Positions 1,365 to 41,937 of a stretch of 43,287 nt of DNA are shown here, one piece after another. The stretch's first letter is position 1. Every line of letters starts with the position of its first letter. Below the pieces are notes generated by a model. That model was not told the origin of the DNA, searched no databases, and was given only the letters and a program-made list of their open reading frames with translations. A program made the position numbers and the translations under genes. The stretch is taken from assembly GCA_016191955.1 (NCBI GenBank), contig JACPVC010000100.1, positions 1-43,287 of the forward strand. Direction: 5' to 3'. Origin of the DNA: Chloroflexota bacterium. GTDB taxonomy: Bacteria > Chloroflexota > Anaerolineae > Anaerolineales > Villigracilaceae.

Positions 1365-1453
1365 CTCACCTTGCGTGATTTGTCGTAGGGGCGACCCGTC
1401 GAAATAGCAGGAGGCCCCGTTGCGCAAGGGGAGGGTCGCCCTGTATGCGAAGA
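1365..1453. repeat. Degenerate palindromic element: CTCACCTTGCGTG left end, GTAGGGGCGACCC core
   Basis: Left end resembles the CTCACCTTACGCA terminal repeat; internal GTAGGGGCGACCC / GGGTCGCCC inverted repeat; right end TGCGAAGAGGT degenerate. Confidence 0.5.
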
Positions 1454-5900: not shown

Positions 5901-6012
5901 ATGCTCCCAGCGCCGTCCTCGGCGCGGGATTTCCCTCATAAAACGCCGCCGTCCACAGGATGCTTCGCAAAGGACGGCGGCTTGAGCAGAGATGCTGACA
6001 ACCTTTACTTGC
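5901..6012. repeat. Structured intergenic repeat sharing a core with 17177..17317 and 41808..41929
   Basis: 46 nt (5942..5987) identical to 17243..17288; GCGCC-GTCCTC-GGCGC hairpin. Confidence 0.75.
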
Positions 6013-6053
6013 ACACTTGTATCGAGACTTTAACAAGAAAAATTTTGATGCCT

Positions 6054-8753: not shown

Positions 8754-8920
8754 TTATTTACTCACCTTACGCAATTTTCACTTTCTTGCGCCCCTCGCCC
8801 TTCGACTGCGCTCCTCGACGTTCACTCGTCGCTCCGCTCAGGGCGGCTGCCGCGCTGAGCGGAGAGCGGGTATTCGTCCCGCTCGTAGTCGAAGCGCAGG
8901 TGCGTAAGGTGAGTTATTTA
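8754..8920. mobile_element. MITE-like element, family 1 copy A (element 8761..8913 with 7-bp flanking duplications)
   Basis: Perfect 13-bp terminal inverted repeats CTCACCTTACGCA/TGCGTAAGGTGAG; direct repeat TTATTTA at 8754..8760 and 8914..8920; nested inverted repeats inside. Confidence 0.8.
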
Positions 8921-9768
8921 AATAAAGCTTCGAATTGCGATCCACTTTCGATCAAGGCTTCCTGCTCCTGGGTGCTTTGGGGTGTGAAGTTTTCACAAGC
9001 CCTGATGACCATAGGCAGAATGGTTATGTCTCCGGCGGTGCAAACTCCGGTTACATCATAAGAAAGCACAAAATTTACGCCGCGCTGGATCTCGTCCATT
9101 TTGTCAAAGGGTTCATACCAGGTTGTGGACGTTTTGGGTTTCTCGCCCCAGGGTCCTTTTGTGATGGATTTGATGATCATCGTTCCCACATCTTTCGCCC
9201 TGCAGACCGAGATCAATTCTTCCGCCGCTCTTCGAAATTCGGGGTTTGCCATCTGAATAAAATTTATGGGGAATAAAACCGAATCGAAATCAAAACGGCG
9301 CAGGGCTTCGAGATATATCTTGGGCGCATCCACACCGTGACCGGTAATACCGATGTATTTCGTCAGCCCTTGTTCACGAGCTCCCTGCATGGCTTCCATA
9401 GCCCCACCTTTGGCGAAAATTGCATCCAGTTCGTCCATGGTCGTAATGGCATGACATTGATACAGATCGAACGAGTCAGTTTGCAGGCGCTTGAGTGATT
9501 CTTGCATTTCACGCAGAGCACCTTCTTTCGTGCGTTCCATAGTTTTGCAGCCAAGGAAGAAGCGTTTGCGCTCGGTATTCATCCATGGACCAATTCGTAG
9601 TTCCGCCTGCCCGTAGGATGGCGCGACATCAATGTGATTAATGCCCGCTTCGATGACCGTTTCCATTACGTGGTCAGCGTCTTTTTGCTCGATATCCCAG
9701 AATGCTGCCGCTCCGAAGATGGCGACGGTGCTTTGGTGCCCGGTGCGCCCGAATCGTCTTTTTTCCAT
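8914..9768 (-). CDS. Aldo/keto reductase family protein
   Basis: RRFGRTGHQSTVAIFGAAAFW, GINHIDVAPSYGQAELRIG, LYQCHAI, YIGITGHG. Confidence 0.88.
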   Translation of the reverse strand: MEKRRFGRTGHQSTVAIFGAAAFWDIEQKDADHVMETVIEAGINHIDVAPSYGQAELRIGPWMNTERKRFFLGCKTMERTKEGALREMQESLKRLQTDSFDLYQCHAITTMDELDAIFAKGGAMEAMQGAREQGLTKYIGITGHGVDAPKIYLEALRRFDFDSVLFPINFIQMANPEFRRAAEELISVCRAKDVGTMIIKSITKGPWGEKPKTSTTWYEPFDKMDEIQRGVNFVLSYDVTGVCTAGDITILPMVIRACENFTPQSTQEQEALIESGSQFEALFK

Positions 9769-17168: not shown

Positions 17169-17325
17169 TGTCCGTTGGGTGCGCTAAAAGTTTGTAGATG
17201 ACCTGCTCCCTTCGCCGTCCTTGGCGAAGGATTTACTCGCAGAACGCCGCCGTCCACAGGATGCTTCGCAAAGGACGGCGGCTTGAGCTAAACTACTAAC
17301 AGACTTTGAGTGCTCCCTGTCCGTT
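17169..17325. mobile_element. MITE-like element, family 2 copy A (element 17177..17317 with 8-bp flanking duplications)
   Basis: Ends GGGTGCGCTAAAAGT / ACTTTGAGTGCTCCC; direct repeat TGTCCGTT at 17169..17176 and 17318..17325. Confidence 0.8.
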
Positions 17326-30357: not shown

Positions 30358-30515
30358 CTGATGTTACGCGATTTCTTTTCTTGCATCCCTCGCCCTTCGA
30401 CTGCACTCCTCGACGTTCATTCGTCGCTCCGCTCAGGGTGGCTGCCGCGCTGAGCGGAGAGCGGGTGCTCTTCTCGCTCGTAGTCGAAGCGCAAATGCAT
30501 AACATCAGTAAGTAA
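30351..30515. mobile_element. MITE-like element, family 1 copy B (element 30358..30508 with 7-bp flanking duplications)
   Basis: Ends CTGATGTTACGC / GCATAACATCAG; direct repeat TAAGTAA at 30351..30357 and 30509..30515; core near-identical to 8761..8913. Confidence 0.82.
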
Positions 30516-35743: not shown

Positions 35744-35862
35744 ATCTTAACTCACCTTACGCAGTGTCGTTCTGAGCGGAGCGAAGAACCTCTACGATTG
35801 TCTCAGAGACCCTTCGCTGCCGCTCAGGGTGACACGGTTGGGTGCGTAAGGTGAGATCTTAA
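35744..35862. mobile_element. MITE-like element, family 1 copy C with a different core (element 35751..35855, 7-bp flanking duplications)
   Basis: Perfect 13-bp ends CTCACCTTACGCA/TGCGTAAGGTGAG; direct repeat ATCTTAA at 35744..35750 and 35856..35862; core GTGTCGTTCTGAGCGG...CCGCTCAGGGTGACAC. Confidence 0.82.
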
Positions 35863-35872
35863 GTCTTGAATG

Positions 35873-36004
35873 GTAACTACTCAGCCGTCATTGCGAGCCG
35901 CCGCTCTTATACTTTGGCGGCGAAGCAATCCCCGTGTCGTTGTGAAGAGATTGCTCCGGGCAAGAACAAATACGCCCTCGCAATAACAGTGACTGAGTAG
36001 TTGC
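35873..36004. repeat. Nested palindromic element (TCATTGCGAG family)
   Basis: Outer AACTACTCAG/CTGAGTAGTT and inner TCATTGCGAG/CTCGCAATAA inverted repeats. Confidence 0.7.
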
Positions 36005-40551: not shown

Positions 40552-40589
40552 TATTATGTTTAGGACTTTCGCTCGTTCTTCTTGCGTTC

Positions 40590-40726
40590 GTGTCACCCTG
40601 AGCGATAGCGACCCATGCACCGCGCTGCGGATGCAGTGCCGGTGAGAGTCTCTACGATAATCTCAGAGATTCTTCGCTCACTTGCACCGCGCTGCGGATG
40701 CAGTGCAGGTGTCGCTCAGAATGACA
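40590..40726. repeat. Nested palindromic element related to the 35751..35855 core, with twin 24-nt insertions
   Basis: Outer TGTCACCCTGAGCG / CGCTCAGAATGACA; TGCACCGCGCTGCGGATGCAGTGC at 40616..40639 and 40683..40706. Confidence 0.75.
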
Positions 40727-40747
40727 AGCGGAAGTCTTTATATTTTG

Positions 40748-41799: not shown

Positions 41800-41937
41800 G
41801 TTGAACAGGGAGCACTCAAAGTCTGTTAGTAGTTTGGCTCAAGCCGCCGTCCTCGGCGGCGTTCTGCGAGTAAATCCTTCGCCGAGGACGGCGAAAGGAG
41901 CAGGTCATCTACAAACTTTTAGCGCACCCGTTGAACA
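41800..41937. mobile_element. MITE-like element, family 2 copy B, inverted relative to copy A (element 41808..41929 with 8-bp flanking duplications)
   Basis: Direct repeat GTTGAACA at 41800..41807 and 41930..41937; ends GGGAGCACTCAAAGT / ACTTTTAGCGCACCC; reverse-complement homology to 17177..17317. Confidence 0.84.

Follow-up and report, generated by a model that had tools for sequence, protein, structure and literature searches.

The 105-bp non-coding element at 35751-35855 of the window (the whole stretch of 43,287 bp analysed here) is in all likelihood one of a set of chimeric MITEs, mobilised in trans by a transposase of the IS4/IS701 group, whose interiors would be captured copies of the host's own palindromic repeats. 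Its perfect 13-bp inverted ends and exact 7-bp duplication, pointed out earlier in a sequence-only reading of this DNA, are confirmed by direct reading, and the intergenic region that holds it separates two divergent genes, which encode an RlmN-like radical SAM enzyme and an Ig-like domain protein. It is composed as follows:

35744-35750, no strand: left target-site duplication (TSD) ATCTTAA, by direct reading; the TSD consensus of the sample is TTANTAA
35751-35763, plus strand: left terminal inverted repeat, a type I end, CTCACCTTACGCA, by direct reading of the window and genome-wide 13-mer counts
35764-35842, plus strand: core A hairpin GTGTCGTTCTGAGCGG...CCGCTCAGGGTGACAC with a 7-nt spacer; the paired part is about 35764-35835
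35843-35855, minus strand: right terminal inverted repeat, a type I end, TGCGTAAGGTGAG, the reverse complement of CTCACCTTACGCA
35856-35862, no strand: right TSD ATCTTAA, by direct reading

Core A folds as DNA with -22.4 kcal/mol (z -5.4 against shuffles), the whole element with a z of -8.3, and an Rfam search gave as its sole match a sub-threshold and implausible microRNA. An effect on expression at this place is conceivable. A second and different palindromic repeat, CATTGCGAGCCGCC...CTCGCAATAACAGTGAC, is found just downstream in the same intergenic region, at 35889-35998.

The perfect 13-mer occurs exactly four times in the window, as two facing pairs (35751-35855 and 8761-8913), and eight times if up to two mismatches are allowed, where dinucleotide shuffles lead to an expectation of 0.55 and never reach eight. 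The two pairs have identical ends and unrelated interiors; comparison bears out the earlier observation that the core of 35751-35855 is unlike that of 8761-8913 and homologous to the repeat near tRNA-Leu. The related features of the window are:

8761-8913, plus strand: sister element with type I ends and core B; TSD TTATTTA at 8754-8760 and 8914-8920
30358-30508, plus strand: sister element in which core B is flanked by type II ends CTGATGTTACGC; TSD TAAGTAA
23480-23655, plus strand: decayed sister element with core C, GTAGGGGCGACCC...GGGTCGCCCCTAC; one recognisable type I end, the other end degenerate
1365-1442, plus strand: truncated core C element with end CTCACCTTGCGT
about 40590-40727, minus strand: core A-type palindromic repeat beside tRNA-Leu, with neither type I nor type II ends; its flanks resemble AGGACTTTCGC/GCGGAAGTC

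An aldo-keto reductase reading frame (8914-9768, minus strand) takes its stop codon from the TSD of 8761-8913 (TTATTTA, 8914-8920), a TTANTAA target being apt to supply one. A further family of dispersed repeats, GCCGCCGTCC...GGACGGCGGC, has three copies in the window (5902-6017, 17177-17320 and 41805-41929), in both orientations.

The same picture extends to the genome to which the window belongs (G000, an Anaerolineales-type MAG of the Chloroflexota, 4.34 Mb in 370 contigs), where exact type I ends number 49, against none for a reversed control, and those with at most one mismatch 90, against two. The loci around nearly all of these ends contain 45 distinct pairs of facing ends with a TSD identity of at least 6/7 or a full 8-bp match, 34 of them with a perfect 7-bp TSD. 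Under strict pairing their interiors fall into five clusters, with at least five unrelated cores: A (that of 35751-35855), B (that of 8761-8913), C (GTAGGGGCGACCC...), a fourth of about 190-300 bp (216 bp in L031) and a fifth of 142 bp. In addition, ends with imperfect or shifted duplications enclose two more cores (L024:1650-1774 and L055:1789-1922). The ends vary as well. The type II end CTGATGTTACGC, which differs from type I in four of 12 bases, is attached to core B (in 30358-30508 and others), and on cores B and C there are hybrids that combine the two types, one at either end, with a perfect TSD; core B is thereby found with CTCACC ends, with CTGATG ends, or with one of each. The genome-wide search for paired ends proposed in the earlier reading, with interiors clustered and TSDs tabulated, thus gave 45 pairs and five core clusters, and the outcome named there as fatal to it, ends that never pair with more than one core, is contradicted by these five and by the 39 clusters over all listed loci. 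What had been claimed was interchangeable structured cargo. The swapping stands, and is even many-to-many, but it does not amount to free exchange, and a function as ‘cargo’ is only putative.

Why exchange should not be free is seen at the junctions of the core A chimeras, where two nucleotides on one side are common to several genomes, whilst the spacers in genome G031 are quite different. This suggests few capture events, each probably followed by multiplication and spread. Given that core A junctions are kept from one genome to the next, each combination of ends and core would have arisen rarely and then spread; end-core swapping is real but episodic.

The autonomous element expected of such a system is present in congeners, which carry full-length ISs with type I CTCACCTTACGCA ends (L231, 1114 bp, with the TSD TTATTTA; L232, 1102 bp, with an 8-bp TSD) and others with type II CTGATGTTACGCA ends (L248, 1055 bp, with the TSD TTAATAA and a broken reading frame; L247, 1110 bp, with no clear TSD), the ends of a further one being CTGACC/GTGACC (L246). 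In G000 itself, IS ends the same as type I run into a transposase reading frame at contig breaks; the transposase is seen there as fragments at contig ends only, a search for its family gave no full match, and a PF01609 search gave two matches. A first probe, placed in frame at the start of the IS, also matched an unrelated dehydrogenase-like gene (L218, L221) and was set aside. Several core A copies without type I or II ends (L128, L129, L135, L136 and window 40560-40740) have AGGACTTTCGC-like flanks, and these resemble the TAGGACTTACGCA ends of another IS of about 1.1 kb with a transposase of the same family (L224, L225 and L227).

The IS proteins, of 353-357 amino acids, are DDE transposases (Pfam PF13546, PF01609), with 339-345 bits against the NCBIfam model NF049921 ‘IS701 family’ (cut-off 250) and scores below cut-off against the NCBIfam IS4 models; a sequence search for relatives in the PDB found none. 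The YREK motif is complete, as Y-2-R-3-E-6-K, in four of them. Members of the IS701 family make 4-bp target duplications and mostly have an incomplete YREK, whilst the ISPepr1 subgroup of IS4, with elements of 1500-1600 bp, has 7-8 bp AT-rich duplications, 5′-CT ends and a complete YREK (PMC2266710). The parent IS is therefore like IS701 in its NCBIfam score but unlike it in its 7-8 bp TSD, complete YREK and shorter length (1055-1114 bp), and like ISPepr1 in its 7-8 bp AT-rich TSD, CT ends and complete YREK, but unlike it in length and in the clustering of the transposase. As it fits neither exactly, we do not file it as a member of IS701.

On this basis, the DDE transposase of the IS of about 1.1 kb would recognise its own 13-bp ends on the short element and move it in trans, duplicating a TTANTAA-like target of 7-8 bp. 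The interior would stem from one of the genome's own dispersed palindromic (hairpin) repeats, a copy of which was captured by rare recombination, by template switching, or by nested insertion beside a pre-existing pair of short ends, after which each chimera would have multiplied as a unit. Hairpins may be favoured in this, as they would hold the two ends together. A clean empty site for 35751-35855 was not found, the matches of the search being mostly trivial (the element's own locus and other repeats); the G000 orthologue of one element of genome G002 aligns across the insertion position, though only roughly.

Core A has 42 matches in G000, many without type I or II ends, and is present in every one of the six congeners tested that lack an exact type I end; core B is found without ends in other congeners (e.g., L470 and L472) as a free dispersed palindromic repeat, the match there covering the palindromic part only and leaving out the first 24 or so nucleotides adjoining the end. 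In addition, the interiors of about 200 elements gave no match to five IS bodies at E<1e-3, the ends being all they have in common. This, together with the end-free cores A and B, argues for captured repeats rather than shrunken ISs.

A tiny MITE consisting of the two ends could have come first, into which free and self-mobile palindromic repeats inserted later, a course of events that we regard as possible, though somewhat doubtful. It would fit the subterminal CGCGATTT, which stands asymmetrically at one side of cores B and C and of one core A copy (L038) and looks like a common short scaffold, and the smaller palindromes visibly inserted within cores A and B. Against it, no empty scaffold element was found, and one and the same repeat is set off from the ends by different spacers in different genomes. 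Insertion of this kind is a sub-case of capture and no competitor to mobility. As for the smaller palindromes themselves, TGCACCGCGCTGCGGATGCAGTGC is inserted in the core A copies at window 40590-40727, L019:1501-1637, L127, L141 and L142, and others lie inside the core B copies L061 and L054, so that repeats are nested within repeats.

It is improbable, on the other hand, that these are ordinary MITEs formed by internal deletion of several unsampled ISs with common ends, their cores being decayed IS interiors. Such is the textbook origin of MITEs (reviewed in PMC10969869), only five IS bodies were compared, and a few interiors are unstructured and restricted to a single genome (clusters C12 and C14). 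Even so, none of the roughly 200 interiors matches any of the five bodies, cores A and B occur free of ends (A even in congeners without the exact end), and transposase remnants would not be as strongly palindromic as these interiors are. For 35751-35855 a classical deletion origin was rejected, there being no interior match to the five IS bodies.

The TSDs were tested on 136 facing pairs of exact 12-mers, drawn from all loci listed and picked regardless of TSD. An exact duplication of 7 or 8 bp flanks 84 of them; in 2000 trials with the flanks reshuffled from pair to pair, such duplications numbered 1.6 on average and never exceeded 7. Over the 145 perfect cases in the sample the consensus TTANTAA is symmetric. 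That a palindromic repeat came by accident to lie between two unrelated short inverted sequences is hardly credible, and was rejected for 35751-35855: some end-core combinations are indeed known as single copies, but exact ends are far above chance in both window and genome, exact TSDs flank 84 of 136 pairs where 1.6 are expected, and near-identical chimeras recur elsewhere flanked by TSDs (e.g., that of 104 bp in L017, with a TSD of its own).

Elements with these ends extend well beyond the genus. The exact 13-mer is found in 27 of 61 genomes (our own and 60 relatives), at 0 to 187 copies per genome, and when GTDB representatives were scanned for facing pairs spanning about 102-162 bp, at least 116 stretches came up. 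Among the matches listed, the labels of the MAGs include Chloroflexota, Chlamydiota, Gammaproteobacteria (Thiomargarita and Beggiatoa), Ignavibacteria/Bacteroidetes, Armatimonadetes, Spirochaetes, Firmicutes and Omnitrophota, and such labels are fallible (one MAG is called Klebsiella). The interiors of the 201 elements pooled over the loci fall, among the matches listed, into 39 clusters, and the number of unrelated cores must be somewhat lower, since some clusters share sub-motifs (e.g., C11 and C13); this sample of about 200 elements, which comes largely from MAGs labelled as some nine phyla, has a bias in favour of perfect ends and of the range of about 102-162 bp. The fold of one representative per cluster has a median z of -5.5 against dinucleotide shuffles, with z < -3 in 29 of the 39 listed clusters. 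Transposase matches were found in five of 12 genomes of the cross-phylum set and are partial only, for which reason the mobilising enzyme outside the genus is mostly putative; in L444 and L445 an end of this kind lies about 70 bp from transposase fragments.

By its properties, 35751-35855 qualifies as a MITE in being short and non-coding, in having terminal inverted repeats and a TSD, and in sharing its ends with an autonomous element; what it lacks is an interior derived by deletion from a parent IS, as far as the five IS bodies compared can tell. Bacterial MITEs include Correia/NEMIS, RUP and QMITE2 of Coxiella, the latter with 7-9 bp direct repeats (PMC2229807, PMC10969869), and they too are short and non-coding, with terminal inverted repeats, TSDs, strong secondary structure and a parent IS in relatives. 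Those described have one core per family and are usually seen as decayed ISs, whereas here one pair of ends encloses many unrelated cores and no IS-derived interior. Thiomargarita has been reported to have abundant MITEs, with other end and repeat structures (10-bp direct repeats with 19-bp inverted repeats; TATAG). A text search of the literature for the end sequences gave six matches, all of them in unrelated papers and none in a paper on bacterial MITEs or ISs, and the MITE review PMC10969869 mentions neither IS701 nor Chloroflexi. REP/REPIN-type repeats resemble the cores in being intergenic, palindromic and of many copies (PMC2817692, PMC3116915, PMC3733652). Unlike them, the palindromes here are also packaged between the ends of a DDE transposase, with 7-bp duplications. 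In mobile insertion cassettes, IS or transposon ends mobilise unrelated DNA in trans. The same is true of TIMEs (PMC13367494), and in this our elements are alike; both of these, however, carry genes or flank a composite, whilst here a hairpin of about 60-170 bp, which is non-coding, makes up the load.

Bacterial MITEs are usually explained as decayed transposons, and here the ends enclose mostly hairpin repeats without any transposon remnant, which offers concrete material for the questions of how MITEs originate and why their interiors are palindromic. It would also go some way to explain why palindromic repeats are so abundant in such genomes, where classifying repeat families by ends alone or by core alone fails. 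It is tempting to go further, and we do so tentatively: a widespread IS lineage may repeatedly, and independently in many phyla, turn palindromic repeats of its hosts into transposable elements by way of its 13-bp ends, hairpin interiors having an advantage in that the two ends are thereby brought close to each other, to be acted on by the transposase or the repair machinery. If true, the fitting of 13-bp IS ends around repeats would be a general route from a static palindromic repeat to a MITE.
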